From: Halobacteriales archaeon YIM A00013
GTDB taxonomy: Archaea > Halobacteriota > Halobacteria > Halobacteriales > Haloarculaceae
Length of the DNA stretch: 64,000 nt
Direction: 5' to 3'
NCBI GenBank assembly: GCA_025041195.1
Contig: JAKCFM010000003.1
Coordinates: 186,001 to 250,000, forward strand
This document shows positions 4,509-38,877 of this stretch, one piece after another (positions within the stretch are counted from its first letter, which is position 1; every line of letters starts with the position of its first letter). The translations under genes were made by a program, and so were the position numbers. The notes beneath the pieces were generated by a model. The model ran no database searches. It saw only the letters and a list, made by a program, of their open reading frames with translations, and was not told the origin of the DNA.

Positions 4509-4674
4509 GTAATTTACCATTGATTCTTTAAGAATTGGAAAGATACACCACACAGTACCCAACTTCCTGCATTATCCATGTGGATGAGTATCAATATGAC
4601 TGATTCATCCCTCGAGTAAACTCAGGGGTTTTAACCTTGAATTCATATAACCAAAGAGTACGAACACGTATATC

Positions 4675-23845: not shown

Positions 23846-24529
23846 ATGTCATCTGTGTCGAGAACTAGTCGTCCTGTATTTGTTTCTGATCAGCAATCTC
23901 AATTCCCTCTTGAGACTCTATCAGAAGAACAACGCGACGTTTTTCGGCGGTTCATAACAATACGTCGTGAAGATTGGTTTAATATCCACCAGCCGATTTG
24001 GTTTGCTCTCGTCTTAACGCGTGATCGACCAGCTTCATTGATTTCAACGCTTGAAACACATCCAGAGTCAGATTTACCAGAAGTTAGCACAACAGAACTC
24101 GCAGAGGTGTTTGATCTTCAGTATCGACGACTCAGCGATGATGATATAGTTGTGTCACGAACACAATGGCGACTCGACATGCTCCCAACATCAGATACAG
24201 ATGTGAATAATGCCTTTCACCGACGGTATGGATGCACTCTTGGATATCCACGATATGATATTGAAAAATTTATAGAAAACGAAACGGTTACTTGCGATTG
24301 GGATGGTTCGCTTTCGCTGGAAGGCTTCGATAAAAAGGAACTTGCCTACACTACATTTGTCCCATATCAACCAGCTGATTCCGCCGATGGGATCAAGCGT
24401 GCTATTACAACAGGGAAATCAAATCGACAAACAATAGCTGAATGTGCTAATCAATGGCGCATTCCAGCGCTGGATAATTTCGCCAATCTGATTTATTACG
24501 ACGAGCTCACCAAGCTTACCCTCCTGTAA
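23846..24529 (+). CDS. X family protein, copy 1
   Basis: A 227-residue protein of a family with four members in this window (also 25.3, 38.2 and 59.8 kb). Shared blocks in order: Pro-Ile-Trp followed by LVLTRDRPASLISTL (about residues 50-67), LAEVFDLQYRR (about 84-94), VVSRTQWRLDMLPT (about 100-113), HRRYGCTLGYPRYDIEKFI (about 123-141), AYTTF (about 164) and a C-terminal AITTGKSNRQTIAECANQW. There is no signal peptide or membrane helix. The His-Arg-Arg...Gly-Tyr-Pro...Asp block is the most conserved and could be functional. A leaderless promoter is placed as in copies 2 and 4. Function is unknown. Confidence 0.8.
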   Translation: MSSVSRTSRPVFVSDQQSQFPLETLSEEQRDVFRRFITIRREDWFNIHQPIWFALVLTRDRPASLISTLETHPESDLPEVSTTELAEVFDLQYRRLSDDDIVVSRTQWRLDMLPTSDTDVNNAFHRRYGCTLGYPRYDIEKFIENETVTCDWDGSLSLEGFDKKELAYTTFVPYQPADSADGIKRAITTGKSNRQTIAECANQWRIPALDNFANLIYYDELTKLTLL

Positions 24530-25332: not shown

Positions 25333-26010
25333 TTACGCAAAACCAGACTGATCAGCGACCGCCTCCTGAAAGAGCTGCTCGGTATACTGCCTCAATTGCG
25401 GAAGATTCCACAAATCGGCATATTCAAGCACTGTATTGTAGTTCTCCTTTCCAATCTGAATGGCACGTTTACGCCCTTCGTCTGAATCCTTGTGTAGATG
25501 CGGCGAAAACGCGGTATATGCTGTTTCTTGAGGGGACATGTAGCCATTGGCTGACTCCTGAATTGAAAGTGGTTCTGTGTGATCTCCTCGAATGAACGCC
25601 GCAATATCTGGCAGTGGATAGCCAAGAAAGCAACCCAATCGTCGATGATGACCGGGCACATCGTGTTGTTCTGTCGGGAGGATATCTAGCCTCCATTCGG
25701 TCCGGGATACAGACAGAGAGTAGTCATCGGATTCGATGTAGTGGAGTCCGAATGTTTCAGCCACCTCTTCTTTCGTTATCGGTGGGCTTTCGTCTGGAGG
25801 GGTTGACGAGGTTCTCAGAGTCATCAAAACGATACCTGGGCGTTTTTTGGCCAGCAAAAGAACAAGCCAGATTGGATCGTATCGGTTCATTCTCGTCGAT
25901 TCTCTCAGGTCCAGATAATCGATCAAGAACTCTCGCTGTTCGTCCGTCAACTGAGACGGCGGATACGAGATGGTATCATTTGCCTGGTACTGCTGGACCC
26001 CTGATGACAT
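25333..26010 (-). CDS. X family protein, copy 2
   Basis: A 225-residue protein. The start is the ATG at 26008-26010, because the TATA motif GGATTTAATAC ends 22 nt before it. Conserved blocks: YDPIWLVLLLAKKRPGIVL, ITKEEVAETFGLHY, LSVSRTEWRLDILPT, HHRRLGCFLGYPLPDIAAFI and RAIQIGKENYNTVLEYAD. It lies 43 bp downstream of the only intact VirD4-like gene, on the same strand, and faces the zinc-ribbon gene at 25075. The gap between them holds a GGGT/ACCC inverted repeat after the stop. Function unknown. The block LGYPLPDIAAFI resembles the bacterial DUF3793 signature, a possible distant link. Confidence 0.85.
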   Translation of the reverse strand: MSSGVQQYQANDTISYPPSQLTDEQREFLIDYLDLRESTRMNRYDPIWLVLLLAKKRPGIVLMTLRTSSTPPDESPPITKEEVAETFGLHYIESDDYSLSVSRTEWRLDILPTEQHDVPGHHRRLGCFLGYPLPDIAAFIRGDHTEPLSIQESANGYMSPQETAYTAFSPHLHKDSDEGRKRAIQIGKENYNTVLEYADLWNLPQLRQYTEQLFQEAVADQSGFA

Positions 26011-26032
26011 ACTATCAACTAAATACATCACC

Positions 26033-26043
26033 GTATTAAATCC
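26033..26043 (-). promoter_or_regulatory. TATA motif of X gene 2
   Basis: GGATTTAATAC on the minus strand, 22 nt before the ATG at 26010. It is identical in sequence and spacing to the motif of X gene 4 at 59801-59811. Confidence 0.75.
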
Positions 26044-26053
26044 ATGCGCTTGT

Positions 26054-27532
26054 TTAGGGGGTATCATTAATGTGTTTTCGAGCGAATCGTCTGAATCGCG
26101 ACTCGGCAGTTAGTCCTTCGTCCGGTTGTGGAAGGGCTGTCTTCGATATGTCCGGCTCTTCGAGTTTACCAAGCCACCATCCTTCGCGAGACTGAATGAG
26201 TGCCTCACCGATATCGAGGCTCATCAGATCTCCCGACACGATCGGCTGCTGGACAGCGATCGACGTGGACACGCGTTGGTCATCTGGATCAGAGCCAGCA
26301 GACAGCGACTGTCGTTTCATTTCGTATCGACCAATCCCGGAGAGCACCAAATCCGCTGTCTCCATATCGCTCAATCTGAAGGCCGCTCTGTTTGGACAAT
26401 TTGTCCACAGTGATTTGGCTAGGTCACCGTACCGATCCTCAACTTGATGAAGATCCTGAGCAACGAGCACACCAACGACTCCCGCCGACCGGCCAGCGCT
26501 GGCGAGCCCGGGAAGGTTCTCGATCCGCGGCAACTTATCGAACTCGTCCAGGAGAAACTGCTGCTTGCCCTCTGCTCCATAGGACAAGTCGATCGCTGAC
26601 TGAAGAAATAGCCGCCAGAATGGGGAAGCATGGCGATCCCGCCGGATGTTATCACAGACGATTACCTTCTCATCTGGTTCAGCAAGATATTCTTTGAGGG
26701 AAACTCGAGGGAGATCGTCGTCAACAATATCCGATAGGAAGAGTGGCCGCAACTGGTTCAACATTGTGGTCTGAACAGCTGATCGATCTTCCTCGTCCAT
26801 ATCCCTTATTGGACGAGTTATCGACCTGGTTCGATCTTTTGACAGCTCTTCGCAATTTTTCACCAGTCGCATAGGGCCTCGTGTTGCGATATCAGGCAGC
26901 GCAGCGAAGTCTTTCTCCTCGATCATCGTAACCACTAGCGCACACATGAGAAGTGTCTGAGCTGGCTGAAACCAACCCGTCTCCTTCGCATCGCGGCTGC
27001 GAAACAATCCCCGTGACAGCGTTTCTAAACCCCTCAGTGTCCGCCCAAAATCGAGCAGCGGATCCCAGCGATGTGTTGAGTTTCTTGAAGAGATCTTGAC
27101 GACGTCCTGGTCGCGGCGATTTTCGAAAAACTCGACAAATTCATTGTCGGCATCAGCCTCCGACAGGGCATGCGCGATCACGGCACCGTCGAAATCCCAT
27201 TTGTCTATTCGCTCTTTAACGAAGGTTGATTTCCCATTTCCAGTTTGCCCAACGATCATGGTAGAGACATCGTCGTGCAGCGTTGGGGTTGGCGGCCCGG
27301 ATGGGTCGCGCTTATCGATCCGTTCGATGGGAACATCGCTATCTGCAAGCCTGGAACGAACGGACTCGCGAACCCCGCTACTCTCGTACTGCTCGCGACC
27401 GGATTCGACTGTCGTTGTGGTCCGTGTTACTGTTGGGAGTGCAATCCAGCCGATCACGCACCCGATAACGAGTGTGAACAGCCATGCAGGAACCGATGCT
27501 ATCGCGTTGATGAGTAAAAATTGTGATGTCAT
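26054..27532 (-). CDS. VirD4/TraG-like coupling ATPase
   Basis: A 492-residue protein beginning at the ATG at 27530-27532 (an upstream TTG at 27583 is less likely). One N-terminal membrane segment (about residues 7-35) is followed by a P-loop: Walker A MIVGQTGNGKST (about 90), a long ATPase domain, Walker B QQFLLDEFDKLP (about 325) and a sensor region GVLVAQDLHQ. This is the VirD4/TraD family, which pumps DNA or protein through conjugation channels. No relaxase or pilus genes are present nearby, so either the element is defective or the ATPase serves the X genes. Two truncated copies lie at 23.7 and 37.7 kb, both before X genes. Confidence 0.88.
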   Translation of the reverse strand: MTSQFLLINAIASVPAWLFTLVIGCVIGWIALPTVTRTTTTVESGREQYESSGVRESVRSRLADSDVPIERIDKRDPSGPPTPTLHDDVSTMIVGQTGNGKSTFVKERIDKWDFDGAVIAHALSEADADNEFVEFFENRRDQDVVKISSRNSTHRWDPLLDFGRTLRGLETLSRGLFRSRDAKETGWFQPAQTLLMCALVVTMIEEKDFAALPDIATRGPMRLVKNCEELSKDRTRSITRPIRDMDEEDRSAVQTTMLNQLRPLFLSDIVDDDLPRVSLKEYLAEPDEKVIVCDNIRRDRHASPFWRLFLQSAIDLSYGAEGKQQFLLDEFDKLPRIENLPGLASAGRSAGVVGVLVAQDLHQVEDRYGDLAKSLWTNCPNRAAFRLSDMETADLVLSGIGRYEMKRQSLSAGSDPDDQRVSTSIAVQQPIVSGDLMSLDIGEALIQSREGWWLGKLEEPDISKTALPQPDEGLTAESRFRRFARKHINDTP

Positions 27533-27720
27533 GGGTACCTCGAAAGTTGGGTTCGATTTGCTGCCCGTGGTTGATGCGCCCAACCTTCCACGAGGAGGAG
27601 GGTGTAATTCCCCTCGTGCAATTAGTCCATGAATTGCATATAGTATAAAACTTATGGTAATATCAATTTAATAATAATTTCAGCTATAGCTATAGATATG
27701 GGGCTCACTCATTCGTGTGG
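27533..27720. other. Gap upstream of the VirD4-like gene
   Basis: AT-rich, contains TATA-like ATAGTATAAAA near 27640-27650 on the plus strand; no gene. Confidence 0.3.
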
Positions 27721-28176
27721 TCACTCGAGGAGCTGTGCGGCGAGGGCCGGCCGTTGGAGACGCAGCCCAGCCACTGTCAGATTTTGGATCCGTTGCTCCT
27801 CGTTTCGTATCTCTTCTTCGATAGAATCGATTGGTAGACCCAATCGCTGGGCTGGAATCGATTCTTTCGTTTCGCCGTCTTTCACGACCTCCTCCACGAT
27901 ACCGTCTGGAGTCTCGCGAAACTGATACCAGACATCGCCATTGAAGAGAAGACGACCGACCATGTGACCATCCTGATCGGTCACGAACGACCGCCCCTTT
28001 GGTTGTGGCGGACGGTCGATGAGATCGTGCCGGATCGATTTGGAGATCATGTACCGACACCGACGACAGGATACCTCGGTCGTTTGTGGCCCCCGGCAGC
28101 GGATTCTGAGAGCTTCTCCCAACTCGAACTGATGTTCACAGTTTGGACAGACCAGTTCGGTGATGGCGACACTCAT
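27721..28176 (-). CDS. Zinc-ribbon protein, last gene of the TFB operon
   Basis: A 151-residue protein. Near the N-terminus LVCPNCEHQFELGEALRIRC and later SCRRCRY give a two-knuckle zinc ribbon (residues about 8-42). The rest is acidic and ends in a helix (SIEEEIRNEEQRIQNL). The ATG at 28174-28176 overlaps the upstream stop (ATGA), so translation is coupled. It is the fifth and last gene after TFB1, winged helix and two more zinc proteins. No known family; nucleic-acid or protein binding is inference. Confidence 0.75.
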   Translation of the reverse strand: MSVAITELVCPNCEHQFELGEALRIRCRGPQTTEVSCRRCRYMISKSIRHDLIDRPPQPKGRSFVTDQDGHMVGRLLFNGDVWYQFRETPDGIVEEVVKDGETKESIPAQRLGLPIDSIEEEIRNEEQRIQNLTVAGLRLQRPALAAQLLE

Positions 28177-28535
28177 GGAAGTTCCTCCAGAATATCTCCA
28201 ACTATTGTCTCGAATTTGTCGTGTTGAAACCACTGTTCATCGCCGTCGTTCGCTCTCAGATGAACACCGACATCTCGCTCCTCGAGCGGATCACGGAGCT
28301 GTTCGATTCTCAGTCCTGCTGATCCCGCCTGTCCTGGTGTCCTAGGATTGAGGATCGTCCAGCAACGTTCATCTGGTCCTTCAAATTTATCGCCAACTGA
28401 ATAGTCACCGACAGCCATCAATTCTGCTGATGTCCATAGCTTTGTCTCACAGTGACGACATTCGGCCTCAATTTGGACCATTGCGTCGGAACACTCGATG
28501 ATGCTGATCCGTTCGGGCTCGTGCTCACAGGCCAT
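28173..28535 (-). CDS. Small Cys-rich protein in the TFB operon
   Basis: A 120-residue protein starting at the ATG at 28533-28535 (MACEHEPERIS). Cysteines at about residues 3, 13, 24 and 27 (ECRHC) could make one zinc site. The C-terminal half is an acidic alpha/beta stretch (DVGVHLRANDGDEQWFQHD). It overlaps the gene before by 11 bp and the gene after by an ATGA, so it belongs firmly to the operon. Not recognised. Confidence 0.7.
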   Translation of the reverse strand: MACEHEPERISIIECSDAMVQIEAECRHCETKLWTSAELMAVGDYSVGDKFEGPDERCWTILNPRTPGQAGSAGLRIEQLRDPLEERDVGVHLRANDGDEQWFQHDKFETIVGDILEELP

Positions 28536-28761
28536 CGATGGCCTCCTGGTCAATGATGACGATCCAGTTGCATCCAAGACAACGGAAGGCTGTGTTTTCA
28601 AACTCCGATGGATCTCCATGGAGCGGTGTCCGGCAGCTATTGTGTGGACAGACAGCGGCGCCGAACACCGACTCGCAGGTTCTAACCATCCGGTGATCTG
28701 TCGTGATCGTTCGACAGCGATGTGTCTCGTCGAATCTCTTCGTGTTGCTATCGTTATTCAT
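28525..28761 (-). CDS. Small zinc-ribbon protein in the TFB operon
   Basis: A 78-residue protein starting at the ATG at 28759-28761. It has HRCRT near residue 16, VCPHNSCRTPL (about 37-47) and RCLGCNWIVI (about 59-68), a plausible zinc ribbon. It overlaps the winged-helix gene before it by 8 bp and the gene after it by 11 bp. In the second TFB module this position holds an unrelated 73-residue protein. Function unknown. Confidence 0.7.
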   Translation of the reverse strand: MNNDSNTKRFDETHRCRTITTDHRMVRTCESVFGAAVCPHNSCRTPLHGDPSEFENTAFRCLGCNWIVIIDQEAIDGL

Positions 28762-29128
28762 CGTCTGACCCTCCTGGTGAAATAGATCGGCATGTTCCCC
28801 CACCGGAATACATAAGACCGAATTCATCGCTACTCAGATTAGACTCGCCAAGAAAGTCACAGAGTAAACGGTGATATTCCTGTACGACAGCTCGACCAAG
28901 CGGGGTGATCTGATAGGTGGCCCATTCGCCCGTTTGTTTGACGACAAATCCCAGCTCTTCGAGCTCTTTGAGGTGGTCGTAGATGCGAGCGTAGCTAACA
29001 ACCTTATCCACCTCTTCTTTTAGATTTGCCCCAATCTCCACCTCTTTCACCGGGTCTCCATGCGAAAGGACTGTTAGTACATCCCGTTTCGGTGCATCCA
29101 GATCGGTGAATCCCGTGTAATCAGCCAT
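28754..29128 (-). CDS. Winged-helix protein of TFB module 1
   Basis: A 124-residue protein starting MADYTGFTDLDAPKRD. It has a PadR/MarR-like winged helix: a first helix in RDVLTVLSHGDPVKEVEIGA, a recognition helix in SYARIYDHLKELEELGFVV and a wing in TGEWATYQITPLGRAVV. It is clearly paralogous to 32788-33039, with matching text through ATYQIT, but has a longer C-terminus. It follows TFB1 directly. A dedicated DNA-binding partner of TFB1, or its repressor, is likely. Confidence 0.85.
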   Translation of the reverse strand: MADYTGFTDLDAPKRDVLTVLSHGDPVKEVEIGANLKEEVDKVVSYARIYDHLKELEELGFVVKQTGEWATYQITPLGRAVVQEYHRLLCDFLGESNLSSDEFGLMYSGGGTCRSISPGGSDDE

Positions 29129-29130
29129 GA

Positions 29131-30048
29131 TCATCTCACCTCGTATAAGTCTTCGAGAATTGGATAGTGGTCTTGAATCACCCTGTCGTAGATATCGCAG
29201 CAGTTTCCAACTTCCTTCTGAGTGACTGCTGGTCCGCCAGTGAGTCTGTCACCCAGGTACAGTGCAGATGCCGCAATGGTGACGGGGCTCGCTCCTGAGC
29301 CGAGATACGTATCAGGAGCTGCTTTGAGCACTTCTCGAGCTTTCTGAATGGACGCCGTATCAAGATCGAGTTCCGATCCGAACCGATCGAGGAATTCCGA
29401 GGGTCGACCGGGTTCTATCGCGAGATTAAACTCGGCGTTGATCGCGCGTTTTGCACGCGCAATTGGCGTTCGCTCGACTCGTGCAACGTGGGTAATCTCG
29501 TCGAGCGTTCGATTGAGGCTAGCTATTGCAGCGGCGATGTGCAGCCCAGCTGCTGCGACTGCCTCGATCGATCGACCAGCCACAATTCCGTTCTGGTGTG
29601 CTTGCCGGAAAATGTCCCCTGCTGTCTTGCGAACATCCGTTGGCAGTCCGAGCGCTGACCCCATTCGATCGATCTCTCCCAGTGCCTGTTTGCGATACTG
29701 TTGTTTCGAGTCTGGCGTTTGAGAGCGAATATGCCACGTTCGGAGCCGGTTCATCTGCCGGCGCTTCTGTGCCGGCAGCACGTTTCCATTCGCATCTTTG
29801 TCGGCCCAGCTGATCGTGGTCGACAGGCCACGATCGTGTCGAAGTTGATTCGTTGGCGGACCGACGCGGGATTTCTGCTGGCTCTCTTCGTAGCTGAACG
29901 AGCGCCACTCCGGCCCGTGATCTACAGTGCCCTCATCTACGACAATACCACAGGCAGTACAGACTACCTCGCCCTTCTGATCTGTCTCGATCTCTCCGCC
30001 GTCCTCACAACTTGGACAGGTCGACTTGTATGTGGTTTGAATGCTCAT
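29131..30048 (-). CDS. tfb: Transcription initiation factor TFB, copy 1
   Basis: A 305-residue archaeal TFIIB. Start at the ATG at 30046-30048. The N-terminal zinc ribbon is CPSCEDGG...CTACG (residues about 9-33), then the B-reader region (GPEWRSFS...RVGPP...LRHDRGLSTTISWADKDANG) and two cyclin folds (from about 105). The usual length fits. It would recruit RNA polymerase to TATA/BRE promoters with TBP. It starts an operon of five genes with overlapping ends. The central stretch 29514-29835 is almost identical to that of TFB2 while the N-terminal part differs, which points to gene conversion. The DHGPEWRSF motif is standard. Confidence 0.95.
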   Translation of the reverse strand: MSIQTTYKSTCPSCEDGGEIETDQKGEVVCTACGIVVDEGTVDHGPEWRSFSYEESQQKSRVGPPTNQLRHDRGLSTTISWADKDANGNVLPAQKRRQMNRLRTWHIRSQTPDSKQQYRKQALGEIDRMGSALGLPTDVRKTAGDIFRQAHQNGIVAGRSIEAVAAAGLHIAAAIASLNRTLDEITHVARVERTPIARAKRAINAEFNLAIEPGRPSEFLDRFGSELDLDTASIQKAREVLKAAPDTYLGSGASPVTIAASALYLGDRLTGGPAVTQKEVGNCCDIYDRVIQDHYPILEDLYEVR

Positions 30049-30197
30049 TACTTGCGTATTATAACATCTATATCTGAAACGCCATAACATTAATGCCCAG
30101 AGCTTAACTTTTCACAGGCACCAATTGAACTGATGGAGAGCCCAGAAAACAACCAAATAAGCACAAAACCCTTCCAGGCTGGTTGAGTAAATGAATC

Positions 30198-31001
30198 ATG
30201 AGCAACACGCGGAAAGCCGGCAATCATCCCCATGCGATTAGGAACGCGGGGGCCGTTCTACGTGTCCTGACACCACCTAGAGCTGCAACTCTCGTTCTGG
30301 TACGTGGAGGTGACCTCACCCAGCGGGCCATTGCAGACCATCTAGATCGGACACCACCAGCTGTTTCTAATTATTTTGAGAGACTGGAGGGACTTCCACA
30401 GCCACTCGTCGAAAGAGATGGGCATGATCACTGGGCGACAAGTAAAGGGAAACAGGTGGTGTCTGCAATCTTCGAATTCGGTGCCCGTGTCGGGACCGAT
30501 CTACAATCTGGCTGGCGCGACGACACAGGTTGGGTTGATCGATATGCTGATTCTGTCTCTCCATTGTACGAATTCAGATCTGACGCACCATTTCTGATTC
30601 TCTATGCACTCGGGACTGGCAAACTATCGTTTTCGGAGATTGAAGACACAGTTAAGGAATGGTCGGCAGATACCATCACTCGCTCACAGATCATTTCACG
30701 TCTCCGTCACGTCGAGGACGCCGAACTGGCTACGACGATAGGAGAGTCTGCCCAACTTACAGAAAAAGGTGAGGCCCAATTTCAACTGCTCGATCGTATC
30801 GCTCAAGTTTTTATTGAGCCTGAGCCAGTGCTGGATGCCTCTATGACCTATCAAACGGAAGATGAAACGGTGCTTCGGCTACCATCAGAATTAACCGTTA
30901 ATGAGCTGGAGGCTATCGTCGATGAATTTAAGGAAGAGTACGGCGGCGAGGTTACTCTCCAACTGGTTCAGGCCCGCGCAGTCTCTCGGTTGAAGGATTG
31001 A
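30198..31001 (+). CDS. HTH regulator of TFB module 1
   Basis: A 267-residue protein. The N-terminal third has a winged-helix domain (LTQRAIADHLDRTPPAVSNY, about residues 34-53, then PQPLVERDG). A second HTH-like region lies around 130-190 (FSEIEDTVKEWSADTITRSQ, ISRLRHVEDAEL). The C-terminal 30 residues (LTVNELEAIVDEFKEEYGG) are also conserved in the paralogue at 34.1 kb. It is transcribed away from TFB1 across a 149-bp gap and its 3' end overlaps the Tat-protein gene by 34 bp. It may control both. Family not named. Confidence 0.8.
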   Translation: MSNTRKAGNHPHAIRNAGAVLRVLTPPRAATLVLVRGGDLTQRAIADHLDRTPPAVSNYFERLEGLPQPLVERDGHDHWATSKGKQVVSAIFEFGARVGTDLQSGWRDDTGWVDRYADSVSPLYEFRSDAPFLILYALGTGKLSFSEIEDTVKEWSADTITRSQIISRLRHVEDAELATTIGESAQLTEKGEAQFQLLDRIAQVFIEPEPVLDASMTYQTEDETVLRLPSELTVNELEAIVDEFKEEYGGEVTLQLVQARAVSRLKD

Positions 31002-32428
31002 TACCAGTCCGGTGATTCCTTCCGTCTCTCCTCACCTAGCCCTCCGCGATTGGAATAGCGTCGGACAATGTGGTCAGGGACTTCGACTGGATCGAACCGC
31101 TGTTTTGTGTCCCAGGCCCGATGATAGACTGAATCCTCATCATATCGATATTTCGGGTCCATCATGACTGAGGCCGCGGTCATGATCGATGCAGCTTCGT
31201 ATTCCTCATCAGCCATATCACGGAGCTCCGGAGCTGCCTGGGAAAGATCGACCGCCCGATTAAGCTGTTTAGCAATCTCGTCCACTTGATCTGGCGCGTC
31301 AATCCCGTATTGCTCGGCGATCGCCGTCGCGTCGTCATCTAGGTGGGATGGTTGTTCGCCCTCTGTTCGGCGTTCCATACGGGCGAGGATATCTCTTGTT
31401 TCCGTCGCTAGCTGTGAGGTATCTTTGTTTCCGACGAAGGCGGGCTCGCTCCAGCTTTCCATGAATAGTTTGGGGAAGTGGGGAGCGGCTAGACGAGACC
31501 CCAGCATGAACCAGTCCTGGTGCTGTGTACCAGCCACCTCTTGGGCAACCTGGGCAATCGAGTCCAGAACTTCCCGCTGGAAACCGGATGTCTCTGGATC
31601 AAACTGTTTCATCTGTGTTATCTCGCCGTCAGATACGTTAGCAACCTTTTCGTCGATCTGCAACGGTGACTCTTCCAATAGCATGGCAAGCGACGGACTT
31701 TCGCCCTGCCCGATCACTCCGGCAACATTGAGGTCGGAACTGCTTTGGCGGTCGAGCGCCCGCCGGACCTCAAGTGCGGCGAGATATTGGGAGCTGATAC
31801 GTTCCCCCCGATCGACGGGAGCCCCACGGCCATTTTCTAGCCGTTGCAAACTAGACTCTGAGCCTCTCTTTCGACGGAGAGCGTGGCCCCAGTTGTCGAG
31901 AGCCTCCCTGAAAGAGCGCTGGTACTCAAGCTGTTGGACGTGGTTGATGAATCCACGGGACGCCTCTTGGCCGACTTGTTGTTGTTTGTAACCCGAAAGA
32001 GTCTCTAGCCCTTCCCGACATTGGGAAATGTTCTGCTCTTGTTTTGCCTTCGGGTAGAACTTCCCGTAGTCGATCGTTCGTAGAAGGCCACGCCGTCGCA
32101 GAGATTCGATGATCATGCCGACCATCTGCATGCAACGTTCACGCTCGAGGACGATTTGACCCCACAACCGCTGGTAGTCGTGGGTGTCCATGAACACGAT
32201 GGGGCGTGGCCGGCGATTCATGAGCCCATGTAGATTAGCGCAGAAATACTTCGTACAGAAGGCCGGGACTGTCACGTATGCATCACGCTTCATATTATTT
32301 TGATGGAATTTACCTTGTTTTTGATGTGTCTTAATGGTACCGGAAACTTGTGCTCCCGTCGCTTCACCCATCCCAGTAGCAGCGGCGAATAGGCCCAATG
32401 TCTTGATCAGTTGCCGTCGAGTCTTCAT
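30968..32428 (-). CDS. Tat-exported protein of unknown family, module 1
   Basis: A 486-residue protein. The N-terminus is a Tat signal (KTRRQLIKTLGLFAAATGMG), so it should be exported folded; there is no lipobox and no other membrane helix. The mature part is alpha-helical and charged, with motifs shared with the paralogue at 34.9 kb: VFMDTHDYQRLWG-like start, QYLAALEVRRALD, AQEVAGTQHQDWFMLGSRLA, and the C-terminal DWYQ. No cysteine pairs or catalytic triad are obvious. I do not recognise the family. Constant pairing with the HTH regulator and TFB says it is the effector of the module. Confidence 0.8.
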   Translation of the reverse strand: MKTRRQLIKTLGLFAAATGMGEATGAQVSGTIKTHQKQGKFHQNNMKRDAYVTVPAFCTKYFCANLHGLMNRRPRPIVFMDTHDYQRLWGQIVLERERCMQMVGMIIESLRRRGLLRTIDYGKFYPKAKQEQNISQCREGLETLSGYKQQQVGQEASRGFINHVQQLEYQRSFREALDNWGHALRRKRGSESSLQRLENGRGAPVDRGERISSQYLAALEVRRALDRQSSSDLNVAGVIGQGESPSLAMLLEESPLQIDEKVANVSDGEITQMKQFDPETSGFQREVLDSIAQVAQEVAGTQHQDWFMLGSRLAAPHFPKLFMESWSEPAFVGNKDTSQLATETRDILARMERRTEGEQPSHLDDDATAIAEQYGIDAPDQVDEIAKQLNRAVDLSQAAPELRDMADEEYEAASIMTAASVMMDPKYRYDEDSVYHRAWDTKQRFDPVEVPDHIVRRYSNRGGLGEERRKESPDWYQSFNRETARA

Positions 32429-32569
32429 GATAACTAGTTACATACTCATCTAAATAATGTTATCGGATACTACAACGATAAAACTCAGTTTGATATATTT
32501 TATAAATTATAATAATGCTCTTGAATACTATATCAGTGGTTCTCAAATATCAGCTCCATTCTCAACGAG
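32429..32569. other. Gap between modules 1 and 2
   Basis: AT-rich. It should hold the promoter of the Tat protein of module 1 and the terminator of module 2's operon; neither is distinct. Confidence 0.3.
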
Positions 32570-32791
32570 CTACTTTGCGTGTTTGAGGTCACCATACCGA
32601 TATCGTTTCACATGCGTAGATACTTCGTCAGGTTTCTCTATGACAGGAATATCGGCAACCTCACGATAAGAAAATCCTACGTCAACGGGAGAAACCACTC
32701 GGGCACGCTTCGGCGGGATATTACCCTTCCCCTGAAGTTGCTCTGCTAGCTCCTGAAAGTCGTCTACCACACCTAGAATGTGTGGATTCAT
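32570..32791 (-). CDS. Small protein after winged helix of TFB module 2
   Basis: A 73-residue protein whose ATG at 32789-32791 overlaps the winged-helix gene's stop (ATGA), so it is translated with it. The sequence starts MNPHILGVVDDFQELAEQLQ; the middle (PKRARVVSPVDVGFSYREVADIPVIEKPDEV, in part) is proline-rich and the end is basic. It is not recognised and is unlike the zinc-ribbon gene in this position of module 1. Confidence 0.65.
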   Translation of the reverse strand: MNPHILGVVDDFQELAEQLQGKGNIPPKRARVVSPVDVGFSYREVADIPVIEKPDEVSTHVKRYRYGDLKHAK

Positions 32792-33039
32792 TTCGTATCA
32801 ACTTGACTGTCGGCGGTGATTTGATAGGTGACCCAGTCGTCCGTTTGTTTGACGACAAATCCCCGTTCTTCGAGCGCTTTGAGCTGGTCGTAGATGCGAG
32901 CGTAGCTCACATCTTTCCCTGTCTTTTCTTTGAGATTCATCCCAATTTTCGCCTCGTTTACCGGCTCTCCGTGCGAAAGAACGGTTAATAGATCTCGCTT
33001 CGGTGCGTTTAGATCGGTGAATCCTGTGTACGCAGCCAT
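32788..33039 (-). CDS. Winged-helix protein of TFB module 2
   Basis: An 83-residue winged-helix protein, MAAYTGFTDLNAPKRD at the start, recognition helix VSYARIYDQLKALEERGFVV, wing TDDWVTYQIT. It is the paralogue of 28754-29128 and is truncated after the wing (TADSQVDTK), while copy 1 has 40 more residues. It lies directly after TFB2 (2-bp gap). It probably regulates, or works with, TFB2. Confidence 0.85.
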   Translation of the reverse strand: MAAYTGFTDLNAPKRDLLTVLSHGEPVNEAKIGMNLKEKTGKDVSYARIYDQLKALEERGFVVKQTDDWVTYQITADSQVDTK

Positions 33040-33041
33040 GA

Positions 33042-33956
33042 TCAGCGCACCTCGTAGAACTCTTCGAGCTGTGGGTAGTGGTCCTGGATCACCCTGTCGT
33101 AGATATCACAGCAGTCTCCGACTTCCTTCTGCGTGACTGCTGGTCCGCCGGTGAGTCTATCTCCGAGATAGAGCGCAGCGGCCGCAATGGTGACGGGGCT
33201 GGCACCTGAACCGAGATACTCCTCAGGTGCTGATTCAAGCACCGTGCGTGCTTTCTGGATGGATTTTGCGTTCAGATCGAGTTCCGATCCGAACCGCTCC
33301 AGAAATGTCGATGGGTGACTCGGTTCGATCGCGAGATTGAATTCGGTGTTAATCGCGCGCTTCGCCCGTGCGATGGGCGTCCGGTTGACTCTCGCAACGT
33401 GGGTAATCTCGTCGAGCGTTCGATTGAGGCTAGCTATTGCAGCGGCGATATGCAGCCCAGCTGCTGCGACTGCCTCGATCGATCGACCAGCCACAATTCC
33501 GTTCTGGTGTGCTTGCCGGAAAATGTCCCCTGCTGTCTTGCGAACATCCGTTGGCAGTCCGAGCGCTGACCCCATTCGATCGATCTCTCCCAGTGCTTGT
33601 TTGCGATACTGGTGTTTCGAGTCAGGTGTTTGAGAGCGAATATGCCACGTTCGGAGTCGGTTCATCTGCCGGCGCTTCTGAGCCGGCAGCACGTTTCCAT
33701 TCGCGTCTTTGTCGGCCCAGCTGATCGTGGTCGACAGGCCACGATCGTGTAGTGACCGATCAGTTGGTGGACCAACACGAGATTTTTGTTGGCTTTCTTT
33801 AAAACTGAACGAGCGCCACTCTGGACCTATATCGATTTCTGTGCTTTCTATTATAATCCCACATTTTGTACAGGCACGTTCTCCTCGCTTCTCATCATGC
33901 TCTATTTGCCCCGCACAACTGGGGCAATTTGAATATGAAGTAATAGATATTACCAT
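33042..33956 (-). CDS. tfb: Transcription initiation factor TFB, copy 2
   Basis: A 304-residue TFIIB starting at the ATG at 33954-33956 (another in frame at 33968). Zinc ribbon CPSCAGQ...CTKCG, then IGPEWRSFSFKESQQKSRVG, then the same core as TFB1 (HDRGLSTTISWADKDANGN, QKRRQMNRLRTWHIRSQTPD) and two cyclin folds. About 8 base differences separate it from TFB1 over roughly 320 nt in the middle, whereas the zinc ribbon and the 3' part differ more. Both copies keep all zinc cysteines, so both are likely active. It heads its own operon and is opposed by the HTH regulator at 34082. Confidence 0.95.
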   Translation of the reverse strand: MVISITSYSNCPSCAGQIEHDEKRGERACTKCGIIIESTEIDIGPEWRSFSFKESQQKSRVGPPTDRSLHDRGLSTTISWADKDANGNVLPAQKRRQMNRLRTWHIRSQTPDSKHQYRKQALGEIDRMGSALGLPTDVRKTAGDIFRQAHQNGIVAGRSIEAVAAAGLHIAAAIASLNRTLDEITHVARVNRTPIARAKRAINTEFNLAIEPSHPSTFLERFGSELDLNAKSIQKARTVLESAPEEYLGSGASPVTIAAAALYLGDRLTGGPAVTQKEVGDCCDIYDRVIQDHYPQLEEFYEVR

Positions 33957-34081
33957 ATTTGCATGCATACAATACAAACTAACTGGTAAAATATTTTCGG
34001 TAGTGACGTACTATTTCCCATTAGCGTTAATAGACGAGACTACCCGAAAAATGCTTAATCTAGGATATAGAGGTTACAACT

Positions 34082-34903
34082 ATGGAATATACCAACGATC
34101 AAGTGGAATCTATTGGAGGGATTTTGAAATCTCTAAATCCAACTTCGGTAGCTATACTGCTTTTTACTCTCGATGAGACAGTGGACACGCAAACAGAGAT
34201 GGCCGAGAGACTTGATTATACTACTGCCCCTGTCTCAATTTCGTTTAAAATGCTCTCCGAGCTACCGCTCCCGCTAGTCGAAAATAATCGCGAATATCAA
34301 ATAACGGCGATTGGAGAGGCAACGGTTAATTTGATAGATAAATATTTGCTGGAATTGGACATTGACTTGTGCGATGTTGATTGGAGCGATGAGAGTGATA
34401 AAGAGGAGATTGATACTGCTCTACGCCCACTTCATAATTCTCGTTCGATGATCCCGTTTCACGTCTTAAATGCTTTCAGGAAGGGGATTGGTCCGTCTGA
34501 TTCGAACATATCCATTGACGATGTTCTATCGTATGTGCAGAGTGTTCGATCGGAGACTGGAGAGGGTATTACACGACGTCAAATAAAACATGCTCTTACT
34601 CGATTTGAGGATGAGAATTCTATAATTATTGATGGCGATACTGTCTCCATCACAAAAAAAGGGGCCGAACAAACCTCTCTAATGGATATGATGCTTGATT
34701 TTTTGTATAGCTCTGAAGATCATCTATCCACCCCTGATACTGAAATACAATCAAATGGATCGCTGGAGATTCCTGCTAGAATGACTATCAGCCAACTCTC
34801 GAACCATATACAGGAGCTCGAAGAAAATTATGGGGGTGATTCGGTTCTCGAGCTACGATGGCCGATAGAATCTGTGAATAAAGCCCCGAAGAAGATGGGC
34901 TGA
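34082..34903 (+). CDS. HTH regulator of TFB module 2
   Basis: A 273-residue paralogue of the regulator at 30.2 kb: HTH in TQTEMAERLDYTTAPVSISF, then LPLPLVENN; the conserved C-terminal block MTISQLSNHIQELEENYGGD. A second HTH-like region (ITRRQIKHALTRFEDEN) is at about 160-180. Codon use is more AT-rich than in copy 1, so the two modules diverged or were acquired separately. It ends 6 bp before the tail of the Tat-protein gene. It should regulate TFB2, the Tat protein, or both. Confidence 0.78.
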   Translation: MEYTNDQVESIGGILKSLNPTSVAILLFTLDETVDTQTEMAERLDYTTAPVSISFKMLSELPLPLVENNREYQITAIGEATVNLIDKYLLELDIDLCDVDWSDESDKEEIDTALRPLHNSRSMIPFHVLNAFRKGIGPSDSNISIDDVLSYVQSVRSETGEGITRRQIKHALTRFEDENSIIIDGDTVSITKKGAEQTSLMDMMLDFLYSSEDHLSTPDTEIQSNGSLEIPARMTISQLSNHIQELEENYGGDSVLELRWPIESVNKAPKKMG

Positions 34904-34909
34904 ACTGGT

Positions 34910-36358
34910 TTACAGAGCTGACGCTTTTTGTTGTGGATCTTGATACCAATCCCACTCATCTTCTCCACGACGGAAGGCTCCTCGATGCATAAACGTGGTG
35001 AGCTGTTCTTCACTGAGGGACACAGGATCTAGCATTTGGAGCAAATCGACAGTCTCTTGATAAATTTCTGATGTGGAATATTGATGGAGTGGGTCCATAG
35101 CGATGCTTTCGACAACGATCTTTGCCCCATCGGTGTACGAGGCACTTATGTCATCCAGATCTCTTGAAAAGTTTGAAAGCGCTGTCTCGGCTCGTAGCTG
35201 TTCAAAGAGTCGCTGTTTATCACTATTTGTGAGGTTGTTTTCCTCTGCTAGCCATTCTGCCTCCGCAGCTAGGAACTCCACAGACTTGTTGTCTCTTCGA
35301 TGCTCTTGGAGCTCTTCAAGCAGTTCTTTTGCTTCAGAGACGATTGATTCAATAGACCCGAATCGGAGATGACTTCGTGCCCGATCGTAAGCATCCCCAC
35401 TTTGCAATTGAGCTAGGCGGGGGCCGAACATGAACCAGTGGCTATTTTCAATACCCGCAACCTCTTGAGCTATCGTGCTGATCTGGTCTGCTACCTCTCG
35501 ATTTTTCTTTGTGTCCTCAATATCAAACTCGAAGAAGTGATCTGAGAGTTGCCCAGATGACTGTCGGAGGGTCCAAGGTTGCTTATTTGGATGGTTTGCC
35601 AACAGTGCATTAATTGGTCTCGATTCTTGCTGACCTATGCACACAATGTCACAACCCCATTCACTCTCAAGAGTTCTCCGCACTTCTAATGCGGCGAGAT
35701 ATTGATTTATCACACGCTCGTTCCAGTGATCGGGATCATAGGTTCCCCTTTTAATGGCTTCTTTTTGGTTTTCAACGATAGTACGACGATCAGAAAATCG
35801 GTCGTAGTTATTGAGAGATCTTCGTAGAGATTCTTGATACCTGCCCAGTCCGTAAGAAATGAAACCCTCTGCAGTAGCTTTTGCTACGTTCTGGCTTTCG
35901 TGCTCAGGGATAGATTTGAGCAAATTGCGAGTTTGATAGATGTTTTCTTGGTGTACCTTTGGAGCGTAGTATTTCTGATAATCGACTACTTTAACTCTAC
36001 CCTGATGATATAGTTGGTTGAACATCATTCCGAGTCGCTGGGCCTGGTAATCATTGGGCCGTGTAATGATGGCTCCGCGTAGCCGCTCCCAGTCATATAA
36101 GTCGATAATAATTGGGGAAGGGGACGTTCCTACCGAATTTAGTTGCGGTATGTTGGATAATATTGACGAAAGTGAGAAACCTGGCAGAGCCAAATACATA
36201 TCGGGTTTATGGACCTGTATCATACTTCTATCGTTGCTATTATCTTGTACCTGATATGCATTATTTCCATCGAATTTTGCACTACAAATTCTGGATATAA
36301 ATCCAGTTCCTGCTAACGTACTCGATAGGTATCGTAGCGTTTGCCTACGAGTTTGCAT
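34910..36358 (-). CDS. Tat-exported protein of unknown family, module 2
   Basis: A 482-residue paralogue of 30968-32428. Tat-type start QTRRQTLRYLSSTLAGTGF; then shared motifs IIDLYDWERLRGAII, NQYLAALEVRRTLE, AQEVAGIENSHWFMFGPRLA and a C-terminal WDWYQ. Otherwise strongly diverged. Predicted mostly helical, with no lipobox or enzyme motif that I can name. Its gene is tail to tail with the HTH regulator. Loss of overall similarity with retention of these motifs shows that selection keeps the function. Confidence 0.78.
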   Translation of the reverse strand: MQTRRQTLRYLSSTLAGTGFISRICSAKFDGNNAYQVQDNSNDRSMIQVHKPDMYLALPGFSLSSILSNIPQLNSVGTSPSPIIIDLYDWERLRGAIITRPNDYQAQRLGMMFNQLYHQGRVKVVDYQKYYAPKVHQENIYQTRNLLKSIPEHESQNVAKATAEGFISYGLGRYQESLRRSLNNYDRFSDRRTIVENQKEAIKRGTYDPDHWNERVINQYLAALEVRRTLESEWGCDIVCIGQQESRPINALLANHPNKQPWTLRQSSGQLSDHFFEFDIEDTKKNREVADQISTIAQEVAGIENSHWFMFGPRLAQLQSGDAYDRARSHLRFGSIESIVSEAKELLEELQEHRRDNKSVEFLAAEAEWLAEENNLTNSDKQRLFEQLRAETALSNFSRDLDDISASYTDGAKIVVESIAMDPLHQYSTSEIYQETVDLLQMLDPVSLSEEQLTTFMHRGAFRRGEDEWDWYQDPQQKASAL

Positions 36359-36925: not shown

Positions 36926-37111
36926 GGAACTCGCACGGCCTTATCGTGATTCCACTTGAATGAAGTCCTGTGGTGCCACATGAAGTCTAAAGGCTAGGGT
37001 GCCTGTTCACAATCGTATTTATAAACTTAAGAAATCTAATATATTATAAATTTTCCGTTATGAATTATATTGGGTAGAAAGTGAAGTGTATACACAATAC
37101 AATGGCTGAGT
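36926..37111. other. Gap with hairpin relic
   Basis: Includes CCTGTG-GTGC-CACA (36967-36981) followed by AAGTCTAAAGGCT, a weak copy of the segment at 24912-24950. It also contains promoter-like TTATAAATTTT about 37045-37055. Confidence 0.4.
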
Positions 37112-37615
37112 ATGGGTGAGTCTAACATTATTGTGGTCGGTGCAGGGATCGTCGGGTGTGCGACTGCTGCCCACCTCGCGAAAGAGGGACAAGATGTTCT
37201 CATTCTTGAGGCGGGAGACTTCCCCAATCCAACGGCCACATCGTACGGTTCGGGTCGAATATTTCGGTTTGCCTACCACGAGGGAGAGAAATACTTTCCC
37301 CTCCTGGAGCGGAGTCGAGAGCGGTGGCTCACACTTGACGAATCCACATCCGAGAACGTATTCGTCACAACCGGCTCACTCACGGTCAGTCAGAGCGACG
37401 GTGACACGTTCACTGGTGCGCTTGAAACGTGCCGTGTCCATGATATCGACCATGAAGTATTGGACGCTGAGACGGTGAACGATCGGTTCCCTGCCTACGA
37501 ACTTCCCGACGAAGTATCGAGCGGTCTATCAACCTGAAGGAGGTGTGCTCGACGCCCACCAGTGTCTTGTTACGTTGGCTAATGAGGCACTCAGCTCGGG
37601 AGCACGGCTCCGGGC
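37112..37615 (+). pseudogene. FAD-dependent oxidoreductase, 5' fragment
   Basis: The N-terminal third of a sarcosine oxidase/DAO-type flavoprotein. It starts with the Rossmann motif IIVVGAGIVGCATAAHLAKEG and the ILEAGDF strand, and continues with GSGRIFRFAYHEGEKYFPLL. A frameshift near 37510-37540 moves the frame to RAVYQPEGGVLDAHQCLVTL, and at about 37615 the gene stops at a junction with VirD4-like sequence. The FAD-binding part is intact but there is no substrate domain, so it is dead or a fragment. Full family members are near 380 residues. Confidence 0.85.
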
Positions 37616-38017
37616 TCGCGAGCGCTGGCCGCTCCGCCGGCGTCGTTGGGGTGCTCGTCGCGCAGGATCTCCACCAGATCGAGACTTGGTACGGCGACTT
37701 GGCCAAATCACTGTGGACCAATTGTCCTAACAGAGCCGCATTTAGATTGAGCGATATGGAGACAGCAGATCTGGTGCTCTCCGGGATTGGCCGCTACGAA
37801 ATGGAACGACAGTCGCTCTCGTCCGGTGCAGATCCAGAAGACAGCGGGTGTCCACGTCGATCGCAGTGCAACAGCCGGTCGTGTCTGGCGATTTGATGGG
37901 CCTTCAGGTCGGTGAGGCACTGATTCAATCCCGAGCTGGGTGGTGGCTCGGTAAACTCGAAGACACATCGCAGCAGACGACTCGAAAACCAGTCCTCCGA
38001 CGAAACGGATCGTGAAT
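37615..38017 (+). pseudogene. C-terminal remnant of a VirD4-like ATPase, fused to an oxidoreductase fragment
   Basis: Reads SAGRSAGVVGVLVAQDLHQI, LAKSLWTNCPNRAAFRLSDM and LSGIGRYEMERQSLSSGAD, corresponding closely to the last 170 residues of the intact VirD4-like protein. A frameshift then puts VSGDL and AGWWLGKLEDTSQQTTRKPV in another frame. The left junction lies within a short shared stretch, AGCGCTGGCCG, present in both parents. Illegitimate or microhomology recombination is the likely cause. It is 220 bp upstream of X copy 3. Confidence 0.85.
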
Positions 38018-38238: not shown

Positions 38239-38877
38239 ATGAAAGAGGGCCAGAAGGGGTTATTCAAAGAGTACCTGTCATATCACCGTGAGTATGGTCG
38301 GGACTATCAAGAACCAATTCAGATGGCCCTCGTGTTGGGTGGAGAAAAACCAGCAACAACGTTTTATCCTCCAGAGGAGTTGTTTTCGGACTATCCAGAT
38401 CTTAGCCCCAGTACTTTGGCTGAAAAATTTGAGCTCTATTATCGGCGCGTGCCAGGAGATTACGCATTAATGGTGTCCCCATCATCATATTGGCTTGATC
38501 TACTTCCAACTGTATCTCTGGACAATGAAACAGGTGCTCGCCGCCATGGGCTATTCTTTGGTTATCCGTTCGATGCGATAGATTATTTCCCTCGCGCTAA
38601 AGGTGCTCTTCTGCCTGGACGAAAGTATGTCTCTCAAGATAGATTTTCAGCTGAAGAAATGGCCTACAGTGTGTTTACATTTTATCGTCCCAAGGATTCC
38701 ATGGAAGGATATAGACGAGCAATTGACGCTGGAATAAAACGTTATCATCGGCTCCATGAACTCGCTGACGAATGGGATGTTCAAGAGTTGTCTGACTTTA
38801 CTGACCAACTCTATGATGATTTCGTCATGAGATACTCAAATAGCGAATTCATAGCAAACTTCGCTAGTACTGGTTAA
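38239..38877 (+). CDS. X family protein, copy 3
   Basis: A 212-residue protein, the most diverged X copy. Conserved blocks remain: EPIQMALVLGGEKPATTF, LAEKFELYYRR, ALMVSPSSYWLDLLPT, ARRHGLFFGYPFDAIDYF and RAIDAGIKRYHRLHELADEW. The HRR of other copies is RRH here, and the Ser-Arg-Thr is replaced by SPS. There are no signals or helices for membranes. It follows a VirD4 remnant and precedes a small zinc ribbon, as copies 1 and 2 do. Confidence 0.78.
   Translation: MKEGQKGLFKEYLSYHREYGRDYQEPIQMALVLGGEKPATTFYPPEELFSDYPDLSPSTLAEKFELYYRRVPGDYALMVSPSSYWLDLLPTVSLDNETGARRHGLFFGYPFDAIDYFPRAKGALLPGRKYVSQDRFSAEEMAYSVFTFYRPKDSMEGYRRAIDAGIKRYHRLHELADEWDVQELSDFTDQLYDDFVMRYSNSEFIANFASTG

Follow-up and report, generated by a model that had tools for sequence, protein, structure and literature searches.

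The two modules of the window

The window, i.e., the whole stretch of DNA that was analysed, comprises 64,000 nucleotides of Halobacteriales archaeon YIM A00013 and corresponds to bases 186001-250000 of replicon C3 (255,819 bases) in a genome of the genus Halocatena (here G000), the chromosome of which, C1, has a size of 2.73 Mb. It carries two modules, each with a gene for the transcription initiation factor TFB, a divergently oriented gene for a helix-turn-helix (HTH) regulator, a gene for a protein with a twin-arginine (Tat) leader and a PadR-like winged helix gene 3' of the TFB gene (Table 1). All genes of both modules are open reading frames at the positions given there. An initial annotation had described two such modules with the same gene order, and both are real, with their coordinates confirmed. 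It had moreover called the genes paralogous pairs, and homology is found for all four of them, i.e., for the winged helices (76% identity over 75 amino acids (aa), E 5e-40), the TFBs (84%), the HTH proteins (28%, E 5e-23) and the Tat proteins (29.6%, E 4e-51). In Pfam searches both TFBs have TFIIB repeats and a zinc ribbon above the cut-off, both winged helices are PadR-like just below the cut-off, and HTH 1 and HTH 2 give sub-threshold winged-helix matches only. The 3' end of the HTH 1 gene overlaps the Tat 1 gene by 34 bp.

The term duplicated module, under which the pair had been introduced, holds for the repeated gene set but apparently not for a single duplication event. At four-fold degenerate sites the two modules differ at 3/49 positions in the first cyclin repeat of the TFB, at 41/61 in the Tat gene and at 42/47 in the HTH gene, and since the divergence of the TFB is far below that of Tat and HTH, the modules do not look like the products of one duplication. 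The extent given for module 1 also needs revision: its outermost part is a further, 100-aa gene of the TFB operon, which is followed by two more conserved operon genes and by a VirD4/TraG-like gene, the product of which is 96% identical to that of the gene behind the same operon on a plasmid of Actinarchaeum halophilum YIM 93972 (G183; its taxonomy identifier now reads Halocatena halophila). The winged helix is present in both modules; however, the second copy is truncated (83 aa compared to 126 aa in module 1), and the rest of the TFB operon is missing from module 2. The PadR-like gene is kept downstream of the TFB gene at loci L001, L003, L048 and L056.

Table 1. Features of the two modules and of their flanks (positions within the window).
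Feature	Position	Strand	Remarks
TFB of module 1	29131..30090	-	319 aa; Pfam TFIIB 91.8 bits, zinc ribbon 37.7 bits
TFB 1, shared part (B-reader, linker, cyclin repeats)	~29131-29922	-	breakpoint from DNA alignments
TFB 1, exchanged zinc-ribbon end	~29923-30090	-	breakpoint from DNA alignments
TFB of module 2	33042..33977	-	311 aa; Pfam TFIIB 97.8 bits, zinc ribbon 39.2 bits
TFB 2, shared part	~33042-33843	-	remainder is the exchanged zinc-ribbon end
HTH regulator of module 1	30198..31001	+	N-terminal MarR/ArsR-like winged helix; divergent from TFB 1
HTH regulator of module 2	34082..34903	+	
Tat-leader protein of module 1	30968..32428	-	486 aa; leader motif TRRQLI; family unnamed
Tat-leader protein of module 2	34910..36358	-	482 aa; leader motif TRRQTL
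Palindrome-like site RTGTAAYTNNTTA immediately upstream of the Tat 1 start codon	32431..32443	-	read by eye
Palindrome-like site RTGTAAYTNNTTA immediately upstream of the Tat 2 start codon	36364..36376	-	read by eye
PadR-like winged helix 3' of TFB 1	28754..29134	-	Pfam PadR 26.4 bits, cut-off 27
PadR-like winged helix 3' of TFB 2, truncated	32788..33039	-	
100-aa gene of the TFB operon	28525..28827	-	
148-aa conserved gene of the TFB operon	28173..28619	-	
170-aa conserved gene of the TFB operon	27721..28233	-	weak zinc-ribbon matches only
VirD4/TraG-like coupling ATPase	26054..27583	-	Pfam TrwB_AAD_bind 84 bits
73-aa gene upstream of Tat 1	32570..32791	-	left flank common to A. halophilum plasmid module, 286 bp, 79%
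Left flank of module 2	37064..37623		92% over 561 bp with left flank of A. halophilum chromosomal L048

Recurrence and architecture of the clusters

Among the TFB genes of G000 (18 full-length and one fragment), 8 of the 18 are divergent from a family HTH gene with a Tat-family gene beyond it, namely those of window modules 1 and 2 and of L001, L002, L003, L004, L005 and L015 (the Tat genes that belong to L004 are found at the opposite end of contig C3, on the assumption that this contig is circular). Profile searches of this genome identified 12 Tat-family genes and 10 family HTH loci (12 match rows for HTH, one locus being split in two; a weaker match at E 9e-6 was left uncounted). Taken together, 28 HTH-Tat clusters are present in nine genomes or records, and 17 of them have a TFB gene divergent from the HTH gene, all within Halocatena (8 in G000, 5 in G183, 1 in G338 and 3 in G392). 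The proposal of the initial annotation had been tied to the gene order being kept elsewhere in a neighbourhood survey, which is the case in these 17 clusters from four genomes. Of its claim that the TFB is bound to an exported protein, less remains: the tight bond is the one between HTH and Tat, the TFB is not adjacent in 11 of the 28 clusters, including all three outside the genus, and TFB distances do not follow those of its neighbours (see below).

In total, 33 full-length Tat-family genes were counted (including three with one internal stop), 31 of which lie within the 28 HTH-bearing clusters, and the HTH and Tat-family genes are convergent in 27 of these clusters, with L075 as the exception. 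Sorting by eye yields two types. Type A, to which the window modules belong, comprises 18 clusters with the Tat gene directly tail to tail with the HTH gene, the gene ends being at most 35 bp apart or overlapping in 16/18 (exceptions: L072 with 81 bp and L074 with a Tat fragment in between); in the type A module of A. halophilum plasmid 2 the HTH gene is broken by a stop. Type B comprises 10 clusters, one of them decayed (L051), with a long HTH protein, a Tat-family gene mostly without leader, Nudix, 5'-nucleotidase, SDR or other genes between the HTH side and the Tat-family gene and, in most cases, a second gene of ~484 codons behind the HTH gene. At L036, L037, L050 and L053 no TFB is present and relatives of the 100-aa gene or of its neighbours in the TFB operon lie opposite the HTH gene (identity to the 100-aa protein: 60% for L036, 25-27% for L037 and L053). 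Because clusters are often found without TFB, with relatives of the TFB operon in its place, HTH and Tat are the constant unit and the TFB is a frequent addition. Locus L009 was considered as a module and dropped; here the TFB and Tat genes point in the same direction with another gene between them and no HTH gene.

The ~484-residue protein directly behind the long type B HTH protein was noted at L018 (13522-15138), L037 (12492-13946), L045 (10099-11529), L053 (12508-13962), L073 (4569-6023) and L075 (7717-9171); these proteins start like ...ITIELGPTFG..., their kinship was judged by eye and the one scanned has no Pfam match. A 5'-nucleotidase-like protein lies beside type B clusters in the window (62101-63474) and at L018 (12004-13461), L073 (7818-9194) and L076 (11484-12851), with the Pfam match shown for L018 and the others assigned by eye, and is accompanied by SDR and zinc-ribbon Nudix proteins. 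These neighbours may show what the leaderless Tat-family proteins do. Near several modules, members of a further family of ~230 residues occur: the window encodes four paralogs (23846-24529, 25333-26067, 38239-38877 and 59834-60547), three of which adjoin a VirD4-like gene or fragments of one, and relatives lie near the L001, L048, L049 and L055 modules. At L015 (~975-2219) a motif that recurs in the open reading frames preceding the Tat gene points to a CRISPR array next to this module.

The distribution is patchy. In a survey of 391 genomes of the class by profile searches, in which scoring was limited to 4 and 5 candidates per genome for most of the set and the HTH cut-off was 1e-25, the Tat family was found in 6 genomes and the HTH family in the same 6. 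Plasmid records added Haladaptatus halobius as a carrier, and Haloplanus sp. GDY1 corresponds to G233; four plasmid records contain relatives of Tat protein 1, and a search of viral contigs found no Tat-family relative. Within the genus, the number of Tat-family genes is 12 in G000, 7 in G183, 2 in G338, 1 in G361, 1 in G391, 0 in G277 and 9 in G392, two of the latter being fragments.

Insertion as a unit

For two chromosomal modules, L005 and L002, G183 carries orthologs at the corresponding sites (L046 and L047, respectively), with ~90% DNA identity in the flanks and the module. The L005 site is empty in 4/4 genomes inspected (G361, G338, G277 and G392), the flanks being ~560-690 bp apart compared to ~3.8-4.0 kb in the occupied state, and the L002 site is empty in 3/3 (G361, G338 and G277), with flanks 41, 47 and ~210 bp apart compared to ~4.5 kb; in G392 the L002-site flanks are far apart, and G391 was left out of the count as its coordinates are identical to those of G277. 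No matches to TFB, HTH or Tat (E 0.01) occur in the seven empty-site stretches. The L002 insert, which also holds a 311-codon open reading frame not common to G183, ends just behind the TFB stop codon, and TFB, HTH and Tat therefore arrived together. Thus, the triplet entered the chromosome as a unit at these two sites, and the regulator moves with the adjacent initiation factor as in modules of extracytoplasmic function (ECF) sigma factors.

Between the orthologs (L002/L047 and L005/L046) the identities are 92 and 96% for Tat, 83 and 88% for HTH and 96 and 96% for TFB, and 24-32% of the four-fold sites differ. As the proteins are conserved despite this amount of four-fold change, all three are under purifying selection.

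Mosaic history and a junction inside the tfb gene

Comparison of protein distances revealed that Tat and HTH diversified together (Mantel test, Spearman; r 0.58 for 14 modules and 0.55 for 12 modules with orthologs dropped; p 0.0002). The TFB does not follow its neighbours, with r -0.06 and -0.13 for Tat-TFB and r -0.09 and -0.18 for HTH-TFB in the 14 and 12 modules, respectively; co-diversification of the initiation factor with its target or its regulator, as in an ECF-like system, is therefore not seen in the 12 modules. G392 modules were excluded from these tests, the HTH protein of A. halophilum plasmid module 2 entered them as a fragment that stops at an in-frame TAG, and one of the two Tat genes in the L004/L019 cluster was used (L019 7942-9264).

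Class I comprises six TFBs (window 1, window 2, L001, L003 and two from A. halophilum) that were picked for their similar cores: the cores are 83-97% identical, the zinc ribbons 26-52%, and the Tat and HTH proteins encoded beside them 24-46%. The median ratio of zinc ribbon to core identity is 0.42 in class I (15 pairs), compared to 0.88 in 36 pairs of nine non-module TFBs (nine of ten, as the L006 TFB was omitted from the alignment) and 0.77 in 28 pairs of other module TFBs; diverged ribbons also occur in single pairs outside class I, such as L015/L014 with a core identity of 72% and a ribbon identity of 26%. In 15/15 class I pairs DNA similarity sets in abruptly behind the zinc ribbon, at nucleotide 113-188 of tfb, and continues in the downstream direction. 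On the other side of this junction, upstream, matches among class I modules are confined to the far flanks (the window's neighbouring module, the 73-aa gene), with the one exception of ~175 bp at 67% in the Tat gene between L003 and the A. halophilum plasmid 2 module. Faster evolution of the Tat protein does not explain the pattern, because orthologous Tat proteins change about as little as the orthologous TFBs.

Moreover, three sites have kept both flanks while Tat, HTH and zinc ribbon differ. The L001/L018 site matches A. halophilum L048 with 92-94% in the left flank and with 91% over 8.3 kb from inside tfb in the right flank; it is of type B in G000 and of type A in A. halophilum L048, where the Tat gene is broken near its start. 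Window module 1 and the A. halophilum plasmid 2 module differ in Tat and HTH but are alike on the left over 286 bp that include the 73-aa gene (79%) and on the right as far as the VirD4-like gene (86%). Window module 2 matches L048 at 92% over 561 bp of the left flank and at 90% over ~1 kb of the right flank, starting inside tfb. In our reading, these sites probably represent allele replacements with one junction inside tfb.

TFB proteins and promoters

The window TFBs have a zinc ribbon and two cyclin repeats, as archaeal TFBs do, and the four cysteines are present in 14/14 module TFBs. The canonical helix for reading the B recognition element (BRE) is not found in them: they depart from the housekeeping form, and their membership in the TFB family stands. 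In the second cyclin repeat, the recognition helix has the sequence IYDRVIQDHY in all six TFBs of class I, VCIATIQTHH with small variations in class II (L002, its ortholog, L004 and the A. halophilum plasmid 1 module), VCIMTIRKHK in L005 and VTEVTIRNRY in L009 and L010. According to the alignment, the window TFBs have R at the position of V283 and Q at the position of R286 of human TFIIB, two residues that contact the BRE. Among the 23 TFBs aligned, the change from R to Q is limited to classes I and II; the V position varies outside the modules as well, with M in L014 and L016 and A in L007. The changed positions fit a different promoter preference. At window position 8985-9663 (minus strand), a weak and broken TFB-like match with 25-37% identity to TFB 1 might represent a decayed TFB.

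On the promoter side, AAAATTCTTC-like words occur in 10/24 HTH upstream regions (four rows having been dropped as orthologs or degraded), seven of them at -35 to -22, which is the usual BRE/TATA distance, and three at -14; 0/60 shuffles reach 10. Similarly, GAAACAGTTACA-like words occur in 7/24 of these regions (0/60 shuffles), mostly at related type B loci. The strict form CRCAAAWTTCTT is found three times in the genome, i.e., in the HTH promoters of L005 and L036 and once ~2 kb beyond the L005 module, and L036 thus carries the HTH element with no TFB beside it. Of the six genomic occurrences of the palindrome-like site RTGTAAYTNNTTA, three lie directly at Tat start codons (window 1, window 2 and L015), a proportion that is partly circular because the site was found by eye; the reversed control pattern occurs once, the other three sites (L098-L100) have no gene in common by eye, and the site is also present at one A. 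halophilum Tat start. A cognate operator common to the Tat and HTH upstream regions was considered and rejected, as the best 16-base match, compared over 13 modules, has a mean of 11.69 for cognate and 11.67 for non-cognate pairs (p 0.53).

Tat proteins

Both window Tat proteins have the twin-arginine motif [ST]RRx followed by hydrophobic residues. Among 22 aligned members of the family, 14 have [ST]RR (L054 by eye), L049 has PRR, six have no leader and L048 has a broken start; in leader-type members the RR is conserved and the next 40 residues align poorly. The Tat protein is probably exported. Neither Tat 1 nor Tat 2 has a family match in Pfam, NCBIfam, PHROGs or PADLOC; among weak matches, Tat 2 does best with one small PHROG (E 0.0025) and Tat 1 with the models formate_TAT of NCBIfam (E 0.058) and TAT_signal of Pfam (E 0.25). 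In PADLOC, HTH 1 gives a weak match to JetB (E 0.03), and the VirD4-like gene matches mad8 (27.7 bits).

In the structural model, residues ~46-283 form four main strands accompanied by helices, and the C-terminal part is helical, with a predicted local distance difference test (pLDDT) score of 79 for the full model and of 83.9 for a model of the N-terminal domain. Foldseek at E 0.001 found no match in the PDB for the full or the N-terminal model, and the full model has no match in a viral structure library. With VIA-align, for which a Z below 8 is the level of models without true match, the best Z is 6.0 for the full model and 6.4 for the N-terminal domain. The latter value belongs to a PIN fold (1w8i, root mean square deviation (rmsd) 3.8, 139 aligned) and is level with other folds; the match to VapC-like PIN proteins is weak (Z 6.2, rmsd 3.6, 127 aligned), and the cyclodipeptide synthase and class I tyrosyl-tRNA synthetase fold reaches 6.0 with the full model and 6.1 with the N-terminal domain (rmsd 4.3, 163 aligned). 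As PIN, cyclodipeptide synthase and tyrosyl-tRNA synthetase folds are tied at low Z, none was adopted, and neither were the seven weak matches of a Tat sequence profile to PDB chains (best E 0.0046 over 75 positions).

Interpretation and alternative explanations

On balance, and with moderate confidence, we favour the reading that the window carries two members of a mobile, multi-copy Halocatena cassette of TFB, HTH and Tat, with a specialised TFB, an HTH switch and a diverse exported Tat protein. As a specialised initiation factor, the BRE-reading helix of which is changed, the module TFB would assist transcription of the cassette, the HTH protein would bind the cassette promoters and set their on or off state, and the Tat protein would be the product that matters, exported to the cell surface or the medium and kept diverse in sequence, as where specificity is selected to differ between strains. 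The zinc ribbon is the part of the TFB that docks on RNA polymerase, and because the ribbon lies, like the HTH gene, on the variable side of the junction, the HTH protein or the promoter of each allele may be matched to the zinc-ribbon half of its TFB. As the TFB core is common to modules with unrelated Tat proteins, the specificity of the TFB would be for the cassette type and not for a single neighbour. In favour of the reading are the recurrent gene order, the presence of both the HTH and the Tat family in the same 6 genomes, their joint diversification, the breakpoints behind the zinc ribbon, the three sites with kept flanks, the insertion as a unit, the purifying selection on all three proteins, the altered recognition helix and the conserved RR. 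The module itself, its copy number, its insertion as a unit, the joint diversification, the common tfb cores beside different cassettes with a junction in tfb and the altered helix are established by these comparisons; specialised initiation, the HTH switch, export and selection for diversity are the parts that we infer.

Several results weigh against this reading. Within 13 modules, no upstream word is shared by Tat and HTH beyond chance. Words were also searched without bias in the regions upstream of 30 Tat genes, leaving out the orthologs Ah046 and Ah047; the result is not above shuffles at k 8, 9 and 12, and 3/40 shuffles reach its level at k 10. Export is not universal, because 6 of the 22 Tat-family rows are without leader and one more has a broken start. 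The zinc ribbon, which has only ~40 residues, shows no measurable link to HTH divergence (r 0.05, p 0.35), its correlation with Tat divergence being r 0.24 (p 0.04), and even in vertical copies the HTH protein has diverged more rapidly than Tat and TFB. Furthermore, 2/33 Tat-family genes (L009 and L049) have no HTH gene, and G277 of the same genus carries no copy, which means that the cassette is dispensable.

Following the initial annotation, the TFB might instead be an archaeal counterpart of ECF sigma factors and a private switch for a small regulon that includes the Tat gene; it would be dedicated to its own neighbouring Tat gene and, as a further assumption, be held in check by the HTH protein. 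The insertion of the triplet as a unit, the finding that among 23 TFBs both BRE-helix positions are changed only in module classes I and II, and the promoter element in 10/24 HTH upstream regions, with HTH promoters as two of the three CRCAAAWTTCTT sites, are in line with such a private regulon. We nevertheless consider it rather unlikely, as TFB cores of 83-97% identity serve modules with HTH and Tat proteins that are ~30% identical, so that each TFB cannot be specific for its own Tat, and as the HTH element is also present at L036, where no TFB lies beside it. A selfish or plasmid-maintenance cassette, i.e., an addiction, defence or competition island in which the Tat protein, as an exported or cytoplasmic effector, is neutralised or silenced by the HTH protein and the TFB secures expression after transfer, appears unlikely. 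Plasmid carriage, the VirD4-like neighbour, the patchy spread (6/391), insertion at new sites and the weak N-terminal likeness to PIN/VapC (Z 6.2) and cyclodipeptide synthases (Z 6.1) would agree with it; however, these Z values are at the level of models without true match, PADLOC gives no match for the Tat proteins and one weak match for HTH 1, an outward leader is ill-suited to an intracellular toxin, and two chromosomal copies common to two species are intact in both.

A further reading is a hypervariable identity locus, spread by horizontal exchange within a clade of archaea that form mycelia, in which the exported protein and a matched regulator are swapped as alleles and the TFB serves as recombination hinge, with its polymerase-docking half on the variable and its DNA-binding half on the constant side; such a counterpart of pherotype loci or mating-type idiomorphs in archaea would be a long shot. 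Hardly more than a slight chance is given to the related idea of a self/non-self or communication locus, with the Tat protein as polymorphic exported ligand or recognition protein, the HTH protein and zinc ribbon as matched read-out and the alleles setting compatibility groups as in comQXP. The co-diversification of Tat and HTH agrees with it, and mycelial growth is reported for several members of the clade (PMC10067837). Against it stand the up to 12 different copies in one genome, which is unlike a single pherotype locus, the size of a folded protein of >400 residues, which would be an atypical pheromone, and the outcome of the domain scans of cassette proteins, in which neither a receptor nor a membrane sensor was recognised; a cell-cell phenotype is not known. 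An ordinary lineage-specific TFB expansion with hitchhiking neighbours, in which the likeness of the modules is plain duplication, is very improbable: many TFBs are frequent in haloarchaea (PMC4230888), but the relative orientation is fixed in 17 clusters, the insertion occurred as a unit, the HTH and Tat families co-occur and the breakpoints in tfb form a pattern.

Relation to known systems

Multiple TFB paralogs per genome are known from haloarchaea, where the paralogs in one genome are thought to give some promoter specificity (PMC7289017, PMC4230888) and the expansion is ancient, with several duplications before the haloarchaea diversified (PMC4230888). The TFBs of the window differ in that they lie in insertable cassettes with a regulator and a putative exported protein and have differing ribbon ends on shared cores. 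The TFB3 of Sulfolobus is likewise a TFB paralog for a special programme, which acts with the canonical TFB in trans (PMC7289017); the module TFBs keep the zinc ribbon and both cyclin repeats.

ECF sigma modules combine a dedicated initiation factor with a regulator and a cell-surface function. By analogy, the cassette would resemble them in placing a dedicated-type factor next to a regulator and a cell-surface function; it differs in that there is no homology, no anti-factor was identified and the core is common to modules with unrelated targets. With comQXP (PMC6334282) and with agr the cassette may share a pattern only, i.e., a variable exported product and a half-variable regulatory protein beside conserved parts, and the variable gene with a variable regulator half is indeed found between conserved flanks. 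Here variability affects half of a general transcription factor, an HTH protein acts as the regulator, many copies exist per genome, and no domain of a signal peptide, processing enzyme or membrane histidine kinase was recognised among the scanned cassette proteins, nor was a small peptide. Polymorphic toxin/immunity cassettes, as far as an excerpt describes them (PMC3482391), are similar in that variable cassettes are exchanged beside a constant gene part; here no toxin domain was recognised, and the partner is a DNA-binding protein.

With regard to the question of why haloarchaea keep many TFBs, 8/18 TFBs of one genome, i.e., nearly half, are part of a single type of insertable cassette in which they have a defined pair of partners. 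Some of these TFBs have an altered BRE helix, and chimeras formed in nature at the boundary of the zinc ribbon exist, which makes TFB specificity and the role of the ribbon directly testable. The cassette is, moreover, a candidate system of diversified exported proteins in a clade, that of A. halophilum YIM 93972, for which hyphae and spores are described (PMC10067837). A text search of the main text of this paper did not find the words 'TFB', 'Tat' or 'winged helix', and no description of the cassette was found in titles and abstract openings of the open-licence PubMed Central literature among the matches listed. Mycelial growth as the reason for the cassette was considered and is unsupported, since G277 has no copy and G361 and G391 have one each.

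Further features of the window

At 9903-14096 the window encodes a 1397-residue protein with a P-loop-like stretch by eye, which resembles large NTPases of defence systems. Three repeat copies (GTCGTAGTACCC...GATTGAA) with a spacing of 72-73 bases, the third being less alike, lie at 17242-17433 and may form a small CRISPR-like remnant. Finally, seven overlapping tandem-repeat copies with a period of 59 bases lie at 3988-4560, just behind a gene that was named Orc1/Cdc6-like by eye (2539-3828), and these are likely replication origin repeats.

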